From an uncultured Clostridia bacterium (GTDB lineage Bacteria > Bacillota > Clostridia > Oscillospirales > Ruminococcaceae): a DNA stretch of 64,000 bases. Position numbers and translations under genes: made by a program. Where the stretch lies: NCBI GenBank assembly GCA_947628655.1, contig CANRAS010000003.1:1-64000 (forward strand), read 5' to 3'. Positions 3,470-29,352 of this stretch are shown here, piece after piece (positions within the stretch are counted from its first letter, which is position 1; each line of letters opens with the position of its first letter). The notes under the pieces were generated by a model. The model worked only from the letters and a program-made list of their open reading frames with translations. It was not told where the DNA came from and searched no databases.

Positions 3470-3677
3470 GGCGTTTTGTAAAAATAATTTAATGTAAGAA
3501 CCTGTTAAAATCAGTGCAGAGGGTCAAAAGCACTCTCTTACAGGGTAATCCGCAAGAAGGTTATCCGCAAAGCGGATAACTCAATAATTCACGGAAAACA
3601 GATAGGGCGTTTTGTAAAAATAATTTAATGTAAGAACCTGTTAAAATCAGTGTAGAGGGTCAAAAGCACTCTCTTAC
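3451..3677 (+). repeat. Imperfect direct duplication of ~91 bp, 136 bp apart
   Basis: The segment at 3451-3541, which includes the last 19 bases of the permease gene and its stop, recurs at 3587-3677 with one visible mismatch (GTGCAGAG versus GTGTAGAG). Between the copies is a hairpin of the form TTATCCGC-AAA-GCGGATAA. A run of near-identical TTACTTC/TTACATC units follows before the ATPase ribosome site. It looks like a local tandem duplication in the space between permease and ATPase. Confidence 0.85.
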
Positions 3678-3717
3678 TTCTTACTTCTTACATCTTATTT
3701 CTTAAAGGAGAAAAACT

Positions 3718-4567: not shown

Positions 4568-5431
4568 ATGAACTTAGCCACAGGTATTCAGAAAGCGGTT
4601 GACTACATTGAAGAACATATTACCGATGAATTGGATTACGGGGAAATAGCAAAGCAGGCGATGTGTTCGCCGTACTATTTTCAGAAAATATTCGGAATTA
4701 TGTGCGGATTTACGGTCGGTGAATATATTCGTAACAGGAGGCTCGCACTTGCCGGCAGCGAACTGTCCAAATCGAATATTAAAGTCATAGACGCGGCTTT
4801 GAAATACGGATATGAAACGCCTGAAAGTTTTACAAGGGCATTCGTAAAATTTCACGGTATTACGCCCTCAGAGGTAAAGAATGGCGGCACGCTCAGGTCA
4901 TTTTCCCGCTTAAAGGTGCAAATCATATTGAAAGGCGGTAATTCTATGAATTACAAAATTGTTACGAGAAAATCATTCACGGTGCTTGAAAAGGTCGAGC
5001 GTCACACCGTCGCGGGCGAACAAAACAAGAACTCTATTCCCGATTTTTGGGAAAGGGCGCAAAATGACGGAACGATAAAGACATTGCTTGAACACGCGTC
5101 AGACCGCAGTCATATTTTCGGTATCTGCTACGGCAACGGACACACCGATTGTGAGAGTTTTGATTACGGCATTGCCGTGCAGTGCGCTCCCGACACAGCC
5201 GCACCGTGCGGTTATCGTATGAACACTATCCCCGCAAGAACGTGGGTAGACGCCGAGTGTATAGGCGCAATGCCCGATGCAATTCAACGCTTGTGGCACG
5301 AAATTTGCACGGAGTTTTTCCCCACGTCAGATTATCAGCCAACCTACGAAATGGACATTGAGGAGTACCCTGAAGGCGATATGACGGCGAACGATTACAA
5401 GAGTTCGATATGGGTTCCCGTTAAGAAGTAA
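4568..5431 (+). CDS. AraC-family regulator with GyrI-like effector-binding domain
   Basis: A 287-residue fusion of two domains. Residues 1 to about 105 are an AraC/XylS double helix-turn-helix (ADELDYGEIAKQ-type first helix region, then the second helix with GYETPESFTRAFVKFHGITPSEV). Residues from about 125 onward resemble the GyrI/BmrR C-terminal ligand-binding domain, ending with the usual EYPEGD...SSIWVPVKK. Such proteins sense small hydrophobic molecules and activate transport or stress genes. The ribosome site AAAGGAGG is 8 bases before ATG. It stands alone between an ABC exporter and convergent ldhA, so regulation of the exporter is possible but not shown. Confidence 0.88.
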   Translation: MNLATGIQKAVDYIEEHITDELDYGEIAKQAMCSPYYFQKIFGIMCGFTVGEYIRNRRLALAGSELSKSNIKVIDAALKYGYETPESFTRAFVKFHGITPSEVKNGGTLRSFSRLKVQIILKGGNSMNYKIVTRKSFTVLEKVERHTVAGEQNKNSIPDFWERAQNDGTIKTLLEHASDRSHIFGICYGNGHTDCESFDYGIAVQCAPDTAAPCGYRMNTIPARTWVDAECIGAMPDAIQRLWHEICTEFFPTSDYQPTYEMDIEEYPEGDMTANDYKSSIWVPVKK

Positions 5432-5636
5432 GAGGTAAGAAGTAAGAGGTAAGCTGGAAGTAGCTAGAGAATAGTAGTTAGCAGTTAGTTTAGGTGTCCG
5501 CCTACGGCGGACAGAAAGATTGTCTTTAAGTCAAAGCGCCCCGCCGTCGGCGGGGCGTATTAATTAAAAGACAATCTAATCGTCCGCGAGAGCGGACACA
5601 TTATATTATGCACTCAGCACTCTTAACTGTAAACTG
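5432..5636. repeat. Palindromic intergenic module (copy A of a dispersed family)
   Basis: Starts with purine-rich TAAGAAGTAAGAGGTAAG-type runs and TAGTTAG repeats. It contains GTCCGCCTACGGCGGAC, then an outer stem AGATTGTCTTT (5517-5527) with AAAGACAATCT (5567-5577) enclosing an inner 9-bp stem CGCCCCGCC/GGCGGGGCG (5537-5557), then GTCCGCGAGAGCGGAC. Elements of this module recur near 11.8, 34.4, 36.2-36.8 and 37.4 kb. It lies between convergent genes and could end transcription from both sides. Confidence 0.75.
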
Positions 5637-8327: not shown

Positions 8328-8750
8328 ATGCACCCTGAACTTGAAAATGCCAAGAACGCTTTAAAAGCCGACAAATGCACCTGCGTTATGACGCTGGGTT
8401 CGGTAATGTTCAAGAGCCAAGAGAAAGGCGTTCAGCCATTGCTTGACTGGATGAACAGCGGAAACAACTATATGGGATATATGATAGCGGACAAGGTTGT
8501 CGGCAGAGCCGCCGCGTTTATCGACATCGCGATGGGTATACGCGCGGTTTATGCGGAGGTTATAAGCGAACCCGCGAAAGCGCTCCTTGAAAAAAATCAT
8601 ATCGAGGTCGAGGCGGACTTGATTGTCCCCGAAATCCTAAACCACGACAAAAGCGACAAATGCCCGCTTGAAAAAGCGGTTGACGGCATAGAAAACGCTG
8701 CGGACGCTCTTATGCCTATTGAACTTGCGCTTATCAGAATGAATTTGTGA
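8328..8750 (+). CDS. DUF1893 (TM1506-like) protein, deaminase-fold family
   Basis: A 140-residue protein; the frame is open farther upstream but ATG at 8328, with AAAAGGAG 7 bases before, is the sensible start. It matches the DUF1893 pattern: an N-terminal TCVMTLGSVMFKSQEKGVQPLLDW, then a VGRAAAFIDIAMGIRAVYAEVIS core, ending MCPIE-like (ALMPIELALIRM). TM1506 of this family adopts a cytidine-deaminase-like fold, and the biochemical role is not settled. The tight coupling to an ECF S component suggests that it handles or senses whatever that transporter imports. A strong terminator follows. Confidence 0.82.
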   Translation: MHPELENAKNALKADKCTCVMTLGSVMFKSQEKGVQPLLDWMNSGNNYMGYMIADKVVGRAAAFIDIAMGIRAVYAEVISEPAKALLEKNHIEVEADLIVPEILNHDKSDKCPLEKAVDGIENAADALMPIELALIRMNL

Positions 8751-8758
8751 TTTAGTGG

Positions 8759-8800
8759 CGGAGAATTGCCGTATAATCGGCGGTTCTCCGTTTTCGTTTT
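8759..8800 (+). terminator. Rho-independent terminator after DUF1893 gene
   Basis: CGGAGAA-TT-GCCG pairs with CGGC-GG-TTCTCCG (8759-8790), followed by TTTTCGTTTT. Confidence 0.85.
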
Positions 8801-8813
8801 AAGGAGTTAGAAT

Positions 8814-9161
8814 ATGTTCGGATTTGGAAAGGGAAAGTCTAAAAAAACCGAAGAGGAAAAACGCGCCGAGGGTATGCCGAAAACGAAAAAGGTGCAGTTC
8901 GACCCTGTTCCGCTTGAAAAAGCCGTCGGCGAAATAACCGAGAACCCGCGGGCGATTTTGCAGTATAAACCCGTAAATTACTACGCGACAAAGGACAGCT
9001 TTTTGCTGTGCGTGTTCTATTATAATAACGAGTACACCGAAATTTATATGCGCCTTGAATACTGCGTGAACGATGTTTCCAAGGGAAAATCGCCTGTTTT
9101 TACGATAGATAAAGACCTAATGCGCGATATTCTGCGGAAATTCGGGCAGAATATCCCGTAG
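8814..9161 (+). CDS. Hypothetical small protein
   Basis: A 115-residue soluble protein with a basic, acidic-patched N-terminus (MFGFGKGKSKKTEEEKR) and an alpha/beta C-terminal part (YYATKDSFLLCVFYYNNEYTEIYMRLEYCVNDV). AAGGAG lies 7 bases before ATG. I do not recognise the family. It sits between a terminator and the large hairpin array; its stop codon falls inside a small palindrome (TATCCCG-TAG-CGGGATA) that resembles the second hairpin of the array unit, suggesting the array may have grown from, or spread into, the end of this gene. Confidence 0.65.
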   Translation: MFGFGKGKSKKTEEEKRAEGMPKTKKVQFDPVPLEKAVGEITENPRAILQYKPVNYYATKDSFLLCVFYYNNEYTEIYMRLEYCVNDVSKGKSPVFTIDKDLMRDILRKFGQNIP

Positions 9162-9300
9162 CGGGATAGAATTGTTAAAAAATTATTCTCCGAATTTTCA
9201 CTTCATATTCACAAAATAGCCGTTATTTATTCAAAATACGGTTGTATAATACAAGTGTTGCAGGAAAAAATGTTCTTGCACTTCCTTTTCATAAAAATTA
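9162..9300 (+). other. Spacer between small gene and hairpin array
   Basis: AT-rich, with TATAAT at 9245-9250 but no convincing -35 box at 17 bp, then a weak hairpin (AAGTGTTGCA with TTGCACTT). If the TATAAT is used, a transcript would run straight into the array. Confidence 0.35.
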
Positions 9301-10300
9301 CCAACCAAACCAACATCAGCGCTCCGTGACTTCGCGGGGCGCTGATGTTGTTATTATCCCGCCGTAGCGGGATTGTTTGTTTTATGCGGTTTCGCGCCAA
9401 ACCAACACAGCGCTTTGTGACTTCGCGGGCGCTGATGTTGTTATTATCCCGCCGTAGCGGGATTGTTTGTTTTGTGCGGGTTCACGCCAAATCAACACAG
9501 CGCTTTGTGACTTCGCGGGCGCTGATGTGTTATTATCCCGCAGTAGCGGGATTGTTTGTTTTGTGCGGGTTCGCGCCAAACCAACACAGCGCTTTGTGAC
9601 TTCGCGGGGCGCTGATGTTGTTATTATCCCGCCGTGGCGGGATTTTTTTGTTTTGTGCGCGTTCGCGCCAAACCAACACAGCGCTTTGTGACTTCGCGGG
9701 GCGCTGATGTGTTATTATCCCGCCGTGCGCGGGATTTTTTTGTTTTGTGCGCGTTCGCGCCAAACCAACACAGCGCTCCGTGACTTCGCGGGGCGCTGAT
9801 GTTGTTATTATCCCGCCGTGGCGGGATTGTTTGTTTTGTGCGGTTTCGCGCCAAACCAACACAGCGCTTTGTGACTTCGCGGGGCGCTGATGTGTTATTA
9901 TCCCGCCGTAGCGGGATTTTTTTGTTTTGTGCGGGTTCGCGCCAAACCAACACAGCGCTTTGTGACTTCGCGGGCGCTGATGTTGTTATTATCCCGCCGT
10001 AGCGGGATTTTTTTGTTTTGTGCGCGTTCGCGCCAAACCAACACAGCGCTTTGTGATTTCGCGGGGCGCTGATGTTGTTATTATCCCGCCGTGGCGGGAT
10101 TTTTTTGTTTTGTGCGCGTTCGCGCCAAACCAACACAGCGCTTTGTGACTTCGCGGGGCGCTGATGTGTTATTATCCCGCCGTAGCGGGATTGTTTGTTT
10201 TATGCGGTTTCGCGCCAAACCAACACAGCGCTTTGTGACTTCGCGGGCGCTGATGTTGTTATTATCCCGCCGTGCGCGGGATTTTTTTGTTTTGTGCGGT
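9301..10300 (+). repeat. Tandem array of 11 copies of a ~91-bp double-hairpin unit
   Basis: The core CAGCGC begins at 9317, 9408, 9498, 9587, 9679, 9771, 9862, 9953, 10044, 10136 and 10226, a period of 89-92 bp. Each unit carries hairpin 1, AACACAGCGC pairing with GCGCTGATGTT across a 15-17-base loop containing GTGACTTCGCGG; hairpin 2, ATCCCGC with GCGGGAT around a 4-5-base loop (CGTA, CGTG, AGTA, CGTGC variants), followed by a T-rich tract (TTTTTTTGTTTT or TTGTTTGTTTT); and a short GCG-TTC-GCGCC palindrome. The stems are invariant while loops and tracts vary. Hairpin 2 plus the T tract has the form of a terminator on the + strand only. Frames open through the array on both strands are considered non-coding. 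Confidence 0.95.
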
Positions 10301-10402
10301 TTTTCGCGGAATTTATCTAAAAGGAAATTTTCTTCGCGCCGTCATAACGACAAAATCGGAAAGTCTAAAAGTGTATAATATATTAAAAAAGGCGGTGATG
10401 TT

Positions 10403-10717
10403 ATGATTAAGATATACAACGACGGCAAAAGGATAACGGCGGCGCTTGTCGGGGACATAGACCACCACGCCGCCCGCGAGATGAGAGAACAGCTTGACGA
10501 TGTTATTGCGCGTTCGCGCCCCGAATTGCTGATACTCGACCTTGCGGGCGTTGGGTTTATGGACAGTTCGGGCATTGGACTGATACTCGGACGTTCGCGC
10601 GCCGTGCGTGCAGTCGGCGGGGAACTTCTCGTAAAGAACGCCGATTATGAAATAGCCGAAGTGATACGTATTTCGGGTTTGGGACACCTTATCGCGGCAC
10701 AGCCGAATACTCTGTAA
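10403..10717 (+). CDS. spoIIAA: Anti-sigma F factor antagonist SpoIIAA
   Basis: A 104-residue STAS-domain protein. The phospho-acceptor motif DSSGIG is at residues 54-59, with Ser56 corresponding to Ser58 of the Bacillus subtilis protein, the residue phosphorylated by SpoIIAB and dephosphorylated by SpoIIE. Unphosphorylated SpoIIAA binds SpoIIAB and frees sigma F in the forespore. GGCGGTGAT precedes ATG with normal spacing. It is the first gene of the classic three-gene operon. The region upstream holds the hairpin array; a TATAAT at 10374-10379 has no good -35, and AAGGAAAT at about 10320 resembles only half of a sigma-H promoter. Confidence 0.95.
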   Translation: MIKIYNDGKRITAALVGDIDHHAAREMREQLDDVIARSRPELLILDLAGVGFMDSSGIGLILGRSRAVRAVGGELLVKNADYEIAEVIRISGLGHLIAAQPNTL

Positions 10718-10734
10718 ATTAACAAGGAGAGAAT

Positions 10735-11190
10735 ATGAAAAAAGTATTGATAAACGAATGTAAAGCGGTATTTCCCGCGCTTTCCAGAAACGAAAGCATA
10801 TCCCGCTCGATAGCGGCGGCGTTTTTACTCCAATGCGACCCGACTGTCGAGGAAACGGCGGCAGTTAAAACGGCGGTTTCAGAGGCGGTTACAAACGCTA
10901 TTGTACACGGTTACAGAAACAGCAAAGGCTATGTTGAAATGCTGATGAAACTCTTTGACAACAACACCGTGTACATAAGAATAAAGGACAAGGGCGCGGG
11001 GATAGCAGATGTGAAAGCCGCAATGGAGCCTATGTTCACTACCGCGCCCGCCGACGAGGAGCGTTCGGGATTGGGATTTACGGTTATGGAGAATTTTATG
11101 GACAAGGTGCGGGTGCGTTCTGTTCTCGGCGAGGGTACGACTGTTACTCTCGAAAAGAAAATCGGAGGAAAACCGCTTGACAAGAGATGA
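10735..11190 (+). CDS. spoIIAB: Anti-sigma F factor / serine kinase SpoIIAB
   Basis: A 151-residue GHKL-fold kinase. The N box is EAVTNAIVHGY (Glu50, Asn54), the G1 box DKGAGI is at residues 85-90 and the G2 box SGLGF at 111-115; all nucleotide contacts appear intact. It holds sigma F inactive before septation and phosphorylates SpoIIAA. The gene starts 17 bp after spoIIAA with AAGGAG upstream, and its last 14 bases overlap the sigF start, so anti-sigma and sigma factor are translationally coupled. Confidence 0.95.
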   Translation: MKKVLINECKAVFPALSRNESISRSIAAAFLLQCDPTVEETAAVKTAVSEAVTNAIVHGYRNSKGYVEMLMKLFDNNTVYIRIKDKGAGIADVKAAMEPMFTTAPADEERSGLGFTVMENFMDKVRVRSVLGEGTTVTLEKKIGGKPLDKR

Positions 11191-11818
11191 GTTCATAGCG
11201 GAGAACATTCCGCTGGTACACTCGCTGGCAAATCGGTTTCGCGGGCGCGGCATAGAGTATGAGGAACTTTTTTCAGCGGGAAGTTTAGGACTTGTGAAAG
11301 CCTGCGATAACTTTGACGAAACGCGCGGACTGCGCTTTTCGACATATGCCGTACCCGTGATACTCGGCGAGATAAAGCGTCTGTTTCGCGACGGCGGGAC
11401 TGTTAAGATGAGCCGAAGTCTGAAAGAGCTTTCGATGAAAGCACAGCGCGCCCGCGAGGAACTTATGAAAAACGGCTCCGAGCCTACGCTTTCCGAACTC
11501 GCCGAATATATGGGAGTTTCAGCAGAGGACGCGGCGGAGGCAATTCAAGCGTCGTCGCCGACGGTATCGCTCACGTCCACCGAAGAGGGCGGAGAGTTTG
11601 ACGTGCCGATAGACGGAAACGAAAATGCGCTTATAGACAAACTCGCACTTCGCCAATGCTTAGAGAAACTATCCGAAACCGACCGCACGCTGATTACGCT
11701 GAGATATTTTCGCGGCAGAACGCAATCCGAAACCGCGCAGGCAATGGGAATGAGCCAAGTACAAGTGAGCAGGAGAGAGAGGAAGATATTGGAGGAATTG
11801 AGGCTACAAATGACTTAG
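11177..11818 (+). CDS. sigF: RNA polymerase sigma F factor, forespore-specific
   Basis: A 213-residue sigma-70 family protein lacking region 1. Region 2 is recognisable (FSAGSLGLVKACDNFDETRGLRFSTYAVPVILGEIKR) and region 4 ends with a clear helix-turn-helix (SETAQAMGMSQVQVSRRERKIL). It is read from TTG at 11177; GGAGG lies 8 bases upstream, inside the end of spoIIAB. Gene order and length identify SigF rather than SigG or SigB. It directs the first forespore transcription programme. No clear terminator follows; the next 400 bp are full of short palindromes. Confidence 0.94.
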   Translation: MTRDEFIAENIPLVHSLANRFRGRGIEYEELFSAGSLGLVKACDNFDETRGLRFSTYAVPVILGEIKRLFRDGGTVKMSRSLKELSMKAQRAREELMKNGSEPTLSELAEYMGVSAEDAAEAIQASSPTVSLTSTEEGGEFDVPIDGNENALIDKLALRQCLEKLSETDRTLITLRYFRGRTQSETAQAMGMSQVQVSRRERKILEELRLQMT

Positions 11819-13080: not shown

Positions 13081-13431
13081 GGGTCCGTAAAGGTTTCGAC
13101 GGGGATTCTGATGGGCGATAAGCGAGTAGTGAGGGCGAAATCACTTTAATAGTCGCAAGCTTAAAATTAAACGCAGACGACGATCTCGTTTTAGCAGCTG
13201 CCTAAGGCGCTGCCGTCATACCCCGCAGTATCGCGGGCGGGGATATGGCGTCGACTAGCGATGAACGACCGCGGCGAATAGCCTTATAACTGCGGTTGTA
13301 CTAAAGGCTGCCAAACGCGAAAGCCTGTTTGTCGGCGTTCGCGCAAGGGAGAACTAAATGACAGACTGCACTCGGAGAAAGTTGCTTGGACGGGTTTTCG
13401 GACAGGGGTTCAATTCCCCTCGGATCCACCA
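13081..13431 (+). ncRNA. ssrA: Transfer-messenger RNA
   Basis: The 5' end GGGTCCGTAAAGGTTTCGACGG and the 3' end GGTTCAATTCCCCTCGGATCCACCA form the alanyl-tRNA-like acceptor and T arm; the seven-base acceptor stem pairs 13081-13087 with 13421-13427 (one G-U), and CCA is encoded. The resume codon GCA at 13155 follows the conserved AATAGTC. The tag frame runs 16 codons to TAA at 13203-13205 and reads ASLKLNADDDLVLAAA, ending in the expected hydrophobic protease signal. It rescues stalled ribosomes together with SmpB. Its 3' end is a common integration target; an island with recombinase remains begins immediately after. Confidence 0.97.
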
Positions 13432-29081: not shown

Positions 29082-29352
29082 TTTGTGATATAATATAGAA
29101 AACGCAATATCTTTAACAGGATAAACGGTATATTTCAAAGGGGCGTAACATTGGTGCGGGGCAAAGCCTCTTTGTGATATAATATAGAAAACGCAATATC
29201 TTTAACAGGATAAACGGTATATTTCAAAGGGGCGTAACATTGGTGCGGGGCAAAGCCTCTTTGTGATATAATATAGAAAACGTAATATCTTTAACAGGAT
29301 AAACGGTATATTTCAAAGGGGTATAATATAGAAAACGCAATATCACAGAAAT
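29082..29352 (+). repeat. Tandem 89-bp promoter-plus-hairpin repeat (three units and a shortened fourth)
   Basis: TATAAT occurs at 29089, 29178 and 29267, exactly 89 bp apart, and again at 29322 after a shortened unit. Each unit reads TATAATATAGAAAACGCAATATC, a middle part with TTTAACAGGATAAACGGTATA, then CAAAGGGGC pairing with GCCTCTTTG at its end. The first copy has TTGAAA 17 bp before its TATAAT and is a good promoter. The same element lies at 50.9 kb. The ArsB-like permease gene follows directly. Confidence 0.93.

Follow-up and report, generated by a model that had tools for sequence, protein, structure and literature searches.

The tandem array in front of the spoIIAA-spoIIAB-sigF operon of this uncultured Clostridia bacterium is most likely (a probability of roughly three in four) a lineage-specific amplification of the terminator end of an independent small-RNA gene. 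As read from sequence, the array is the 3′ end of a predicted small-RNA gene that begins upstream, near position 9245 of the window, the 64,000-nucleotide stretch of DNA analysed here (Table 1). The initial annotation had placed an array at 9301..10300 directly upstream of the sigF operon; the operon indeed adjoins, whereas the array runs to 10304, leaving 98 bases to the spoIIAA start, and the element from which it stems starts near 9245. The predicted small-RNA gene whose terminator forms the array had been overlooked.

Table 1. Features around the array and the sigF operon, in coordinates of the window.
Feature	Position	Strand	Basis or detail
Upstream gene 8814	8814..9161	+	no Pfam or NCBIfam match
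TATAAT, possible -10 of the small-RNA promoter	9245..9250	+	read from sequence; predicted transcription start ~9257
5′ stem-loop of the predicted small RNA (TGCAGG..TTCTTGCA)	9259..9280	+	8-pair stem
Small-RNA model match	9274..9355	+	74.6 bits, E 4.2e-13; the sequence itself is in the model's training set
Conserved core of the predicted small RNA, TTTTCATAAAAATTACCAACCA	9286..9307	+	exact pattern in genus, alignment
Unit 1	9305..9396	+	terminator hairpin 9311-9350 (-33.3 kcal/mol), second hairpin 9356-9373
Units 2-11	9397..10304	+	repeats of the terminator module, each without one stem base present in unit 1
Separate promoter-like region of spoIIAA	10348..10379	+	CGACAAA; TATAAT at 10374-10379
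spoIIAA, spoIIAB, sigF operon	10403..11818	+	NCBIfam matches

TRF reported a single strong array at this site, 9305-10299 (period 91, 10.9 copies, 93% matches, score 1683), and splitting at CCAAA[CT]CAACA yielded 11 units of 89-92 bp each that fill 9305-10304 with a mean column identity of 94%. Such likeness over the full unit length differs from a CRISPR array, with its short repeats and unique spacers. Both hairpins are present in all 11 units: the long hairpin 1 (CAACA..TG), followed by TTATTAT, and the short, GC-rich hairpin 2 (ATCCCGC..GCGGGAT), a 7-pair stem followed by T6 in six units and by TGTTTGTTTT in five. The unit number, period and two hairpins per unit that had been described before are thereby confirmed. 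The stem bases, which had been called constant, are so in stem 2, where all seven pairs are identical in 11/11 units, but not in stem 1, which varies among units (CC/TT, GGGG/GGG, one T missing in units 2-11, TTG/TG). Folding each unit alone gave a third small hairpin near the 3′ end in 9/11 units, and in the best fold of unit 5 hairpin 2 was paired differently.

Searching both strands of 8600-11000 for terminator-like sites returned 28, versus 5.0 (sd 2.9) in shuffled sequence. All those inside the array lie on the + strand save one 5-pair site at 9782-9769, so that the earlier view of terminators on this strand only holds with that exception, and a series of + strand terminator-like hairpins between the upstream -10-like hexamer and spoIIAA is supported. 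T-rich stretches follow hairpin 2 on one strand in every unit, and the array hairpins combine, by sequence, the GC-rich stem and one-strand T tract of intrinsic terminators. The hairpin of unit 1 (-34.3 kcal/mol when folded as the relatives were) falls within the relatives' range of -25.7 to -40.9, leaving aside the cut-off copy G004a, and hairpin 1 of units 2-11 is weaker in each case (-16.7 to -28.2 kcal/mol). The T-tract score behind hairpin 1 is 2.76, beside 0.1 to 4.4 in relatives, values that are not fully comparable as the relatives' fold absorbs the first T's.

The predicted small RNA would start near 9257 and comprise a 5′ hairpin, a nearly invariant core of ~20 nt and, as its terminator, the covarying hairpin of unit 1. 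A -10-like hexamer (5 of 6) stands 38-80 nt before the core, at varying distance, in 41/44 copies, where 19.9 would be expected from mononucleotide shuffles. A two-hexamer promoter scan listed none before the predicted small RNA, which indicates a poor -35. Relatives have, by eye, 5′ hairpins of differing sequence at the equivalent place. The small-RNA model found only one full-scoring copy in this genome, along with partial matches in the array units. At 22 nt, the core of the window is longer than those of the 43 other copies (20 or 21 nt); alignment with these revealed one insertion and an altered 5′ flank, so the predicted small RNA of this genome could be decaying.

Conservation of the element was assessed with the core pattern TTTTCATAN{1,4}ATTACCAACCA, which occurs exactly in 39/43 genomes of the genus (44 copies), the reversed-pattern control giving 0 in each. 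A scan of named genomes yielded 60 stretches with the pattern, of which 42 were kept (records named Clostridia, Oscillospiraceae or Ruminococcaceae with the element visible, some cut by contig ends) and 18 were excluded before alignment as chance, 17 by unrelated taxon and L110 for want of flanks. Of the 44 copies, the contig-end copy L073 was left out of the model, which was built from the remaining 43 rows. In the terminator stem 99.2% of cells are paired, versus 80.8% in shuffles and 36-50% when the arms are slid, and two-sided changes occur in 12/17 pairs. The covariation that had been proposed as a check is therefore present, and the element has a terminator of its own with conserved structure, as a small-RNA gene should. 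G-U pairs are common in this stem on the + strand, which fits that strand as the RNA. Insertions and deletions of 1, 4 and 5 nt within the conserved part argue against coding for a peptide; some open frame crosses the body in 19/44 copies, so the coding test is not decisive. In G016 two full-length copies lie 210 bp apart (L072, 1501 and 1711), a tandem duplication of the whole gene.

The core is absent from G002 and G005 (97% and 98% complete), and the small-RNA model gave only weak matches without the core in G005 and G033 and no match in G002 and G003. Run on 295 genomes of the order with strict filters and 15 candidates scored per genome, the 43-copy model (R1) returned 10 matches, two of them from the genus itself (G000 and G010); the eight beyond the genus were without the core by eye, most being bare terminators, and with filters this strict weak relatives outside the genus could be missed. 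Rfam 15 contains no family that reached its gathering score at the small RNA or the array, a full scan of the window reporting the tmRNA only. Relaxed scans of 9150-10420 and of eight loci with the small RNA gave, at the small RNA, only matches far under gathering: isrJ at 30.1 bits versus 37 (L007), Leu_leader at 26.7 versus 50 (L051) and, in the window, Bp1_781 at 22.5 versus 80 (E 0.0023). Titles and abstract openings returned by literature searches contained nothing on this predicted small RNA or the array, and a search with the core string returned one unrelated paper, on a mushroom.

The predicted RNA would act in trans, and the antisense of its core was sought as a target in the 43 genomes. 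This sequence (21 nt, up to 3 mismatches) occurs in 29/43 genomes, at the small-RNA gene itself save for four stray places with 3 mismatches; no conserved near-perfect place was found outside the small-RNA gene. The antisense reads GGTTGG..ATGAAAA and thus resembles a ribosome-binding site with a start codon, a resemblance that offers a lead to possible targets at translation starts. The four stray places (3/21 mismatches; G029 C267:2924, G016 C20:862, G012 C6:32560 and G034 C164:3829) each keep ATG (or AGATG) at the start-codon position, one of them behind AGGGAGG; they are possible targets or chance matches.

Position beside the sigF operon could also suggest a cis-acting leader or attenuator of that operon, as in five genomes, this one included, the element lies upstream of it and points the same way. 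NCBIfam identified SpoIIAB above its cut-off, and SpoIIAA and SigF matched their own models below the cut-offs. Among 39 genomes with the small RNA, the operon is near it in 13, in three arrangements (same direction in 5, divergent in 7, convergent in 1), which makes an operon leader unlikely. The operon is thus on the other strand in 8/39 genomes, and in 26/39 it falls outside the nearest three ORFs on each side, a count for which neighbours were picked mechanically and some contigs end close to the small RNA; in G016 and G032 the operon is ~5.5 kb away. A leader would precede a fixed gene in the same direction, and across the 39 genomes no such downstream gene was found. In 13/39 genomes, that of the window included, one of the three closest ORFs upstream of the small RNA is homologous to gene 8814. 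Since spoIIAA moreover has a promoter-like box of its own, we regard a leader or attenuator as scarcely credible.

The CGACAAA in this region resembles a Spo0A box. The box with its -10 pattern recurs in 23/31 sigF loci, the window's included, in a raw count that contains at least one match (L012) at a wrong site. A conserved 5′ leader of ~55-90 nt, CCGCTCACCGCGC..GGAGTAAAGACGGCGG, identified by alignment, was also observed between this box and spoIIAA. Its pattern is found in 17/31 sigF loci (L006, L007, L008, L009, L010, L012, L013, L014, L015, L017, L018, L020, L021, L025, L027, L028 and L051), an 18th match, in L033, lying outside the leader; L019, L022 and L024 look alike by eye. Rfam produced no match inside this leader in the scanned loci that carry it. 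It is possibly a cis-regulatory RNA of the sigF operon. The spoIIAA of the window is without that leader, with 23 nt from TATAAT to the start. A tmRNA gene (13081-13431) lies close to sigF in the window, and likewise near sigF in G026.

How the array came about can be approached through relatives. In G024 and G026, which are among the closest by SigF, the equivalent stretch from the 8814 homologue to spoIIAA (which in G026 includes an extra ORF) contains a single two-hairpin module, with other stem sequences, behind the string TTTTCATATAATTACCAACCAAACC; a slightly altered TTTTCATATAATTACCAACCAAACC precedes unit 1 in the window, at 9286-9307. Only the window's copy (n=44) runs directly from the core element into a tandem array; four other copies have unrelated tandem repeats at least 680 nt further downstream. 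Downstream sequence is shorter than 500 bases for five of the 44 copies, and many relatives are fragmented, which makes absence of the array from relatives weak evidence. The palindrome TATCCCG..CGGGATA at the end of gene 8814 (9152-9168) resembles hairpin 2, and it had been put forward as the seed of the array. That proposal was rejected: G024 and G026 have the module once behind the same core, and their 8814 genes do not end in this palindrome, that of G024 carrying a different small inverted repeat instead.

Within the array, unit 1 has the intact stem and units 2-11 share the one-base deletion, with variants mixed among units. Of 36 pairs of informative site patterns in the 11 units, 20 display all four combinations, which indicates that units exchanged sequence or mutated recurrently; the changing copy number suggested initially is consistent with these signs of exchange, recurrent change being possible too. 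We considered an assembly artefact with a wrong copy number, given that the assembly has 34 contigs and that the longest exact repeats within the array are 126 and 107 bases, lengths near the limit of short-read graphs. Against this, each unit has a distinct combination of variants and the array lies inside a contig of 169,765 bases, and an artefact is therefore very unlikely.

A mobile palindrome of the REP, BIME or REPIN type expanded in place, an origin mentioned in the initial annotation, would fit the abundance of GC palindromes in this genome and the resemblance of hairpin 2 to them: CCCGCCN{2,4}GGCGGG occurs 394 times, versus 0-159 in the other 42 genomes, whose low counts may partly reflect assemblies broken at repeats. 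The 115 GC palindromes counted in 499 kb of sequence form 58 clusters, of which 40 hold a single palindrome, and their outer arms differ in sequence. The search for single units elsewhere, however, found no second full site in the genome, only a 34-base match on contig C6 and, on the opposite strand, the unit's own hairpin, and the counterparts of hairpin 2 at the same place in G024 and G026 are of other sequence. Y1_Tnp, present in 9/43 genomes of the genus, had 0 matches in this genome and none in the next palindrome-rich ones, G028 and G014. A RAYT-driven REP was accordingly rejected, and an element of this type altogether is very unlikely.

Hairpin arrays built of different units occur elsewhere in this genome, on C6 near 47.9 kb and on C10 at 36.7-41.4 kb, where uvrC, rsmD and coaD are neighbours. 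By locus, hairpin arrays with periods from 37 to 156 bp lie at L036 2681-3283, 5295-5891 and 6648-7357, L035 5875-6424, L146 18968-19573 and L160 8757-9551. ORFs of at least 90 aa overlap 6/7 of the other arrays checked; we judge these arrays intergenic and take the overlapping ORFs as chance frames or late start codons. Hairpin arrays numbered two in a 400-kb sample of this genome versus 0 in 352 kb from four relatives, too few to establish a difference. An 89-bp tandem repeat (2.3-3.1 copies) with TATAATATAG was noted at 29082-29321 of the window, L037 9431-9708 and L151 1-208, and minisatellites of 7, 14 and 21 bp (TCTTACC, AGAGGTA and similar) at 3672-3704 and 5422-5453 of the window and in L145, L150, L160 and L162. 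The hairpin arrays elsewhere make a general amplification process in this genome likely. Together with the 394 palindromes and the missing Y1 transposase, they point to slippage or unequal exchange at hairpins as the likeliest origin of the array, and we infer that the last single-stranded bases of the small-RNA gene and its two hairpins (~91 bp) were duplicated repeatedly in this species, probably by this route, as at the other sites in the genome.

If the array is the amplified end of a small-RNA gene, unit 1 would still terminate the small RNA, RNA polymerase entering from the small-RNA promoter might stop at each unit, and units 2-11 would be at most spare terminators that catch read-through before spoIIAA. 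A set of redundant terminators behind the predicted small RNA is thus the most probable effect of the array. Two refinements of this explanation were weighed. The array may be a neutral repeat that simply results from duplication at hairpins in a genome with many GC palindromes and would have no effect because unit 1 already terminates. This has somewhat less than even odds in our estimate: the palindromes and several unrelated arrays, the weaker hairpin 1 of units 2-11 and the mixed variants speak for it, whereas the identical hairpin 2 stem in 11/11 units and the T-rich stretch after each on one strand do not.

Alternatively, the stack may be a selected insulator that prevents transcription of spoIIAA-spoIIAB-sigF from the small-RNA promoter during growth, with copy number tuning the leakage. 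In its favor, the terminator-like sites in the array are oriented toward spoIIAA, which has a promoter-like region of its own downstream of the array. In 6/11 units hairpin 2 is followed by a longer T tract than in unit 1, which could mean selection for termination; with its six T's, hairpin 2 would be the stronger stop in these units, judged by the T tract. PMC5540618 and PMC9931155 describe a sigF operon in B. subtilis that is on at high Spo0A~P and SigH-dependent, and Rho termination affecting sporulation through kinB, both of which we counted in favor of insulation. On the other side, no T tract directly follows the hairpins in the uvrC-rsmD and rsmD-coaD arrays, which favors a general process (T-rich stretches do occur in the C6 array), and G024, G026 and G011 have the same gene order but one or two hairpins. 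Shielding of sigF by the array is possible, and selection for it rather doubtful. We consider it improbable that the array is a working terminator ladder of variable copy number, on which the small RNA would be made with serial 3′ ends from unit 1 to unit 11.

Like trans-acting small RNAs with an intrinsic terminator, the predicted RNA has a -10-like hexamer, a 5′ hairpin, a conserved single-stranded core, a covarying terminator and no fixed downstream gene. It differs from them in having no Rfam 15 family at threshold, in being found only in the window's genus among the genomes searched and, in this species, in a terminator end repeated eleven times. The array shares with tandem (double) intrinsic terminators the arrangement of hairpins and T tracts in series on one strand. 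Two intrinsic terminators in series are ordinary; to our knowledge, eleven two-hairpin units in series are not. GC-rich, multi-copy palindromes outside genes are common to the array and to REP, BIME and REPIN elements, from which it differs in the confinement of its unit to one site and in the lack of a detectable Y1 transposase in the genome. The palindromic candidate structured RNAs of human microbiomes in PMC8040213, which gives 3161 candidates, are likewise terminator-like structured RNAs predicted in gut bacteria.

The array and the other hairpin arrays make this genome a case of terminators or palindromes multiplying where no Y1 transposase was found, and the window offers a natural series of up to eleven terminators before a sporulation switch operon. 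Were the ladder real, each further unit would add a CCAAACC segment and another stop, and recombination that expanded or contracted the array would determine how far the RNA extends at its 3′ end and how strongly its promoter leaks into the sporulation operon, so that sporulation would vary in a heritable way. For the genus as a whole, the finding is a predicted small-RNA family in 39 of 43 genomes, whose nearly unchanging core of ~20 nt invites a search for its partner, be it an mRNA or a protein.
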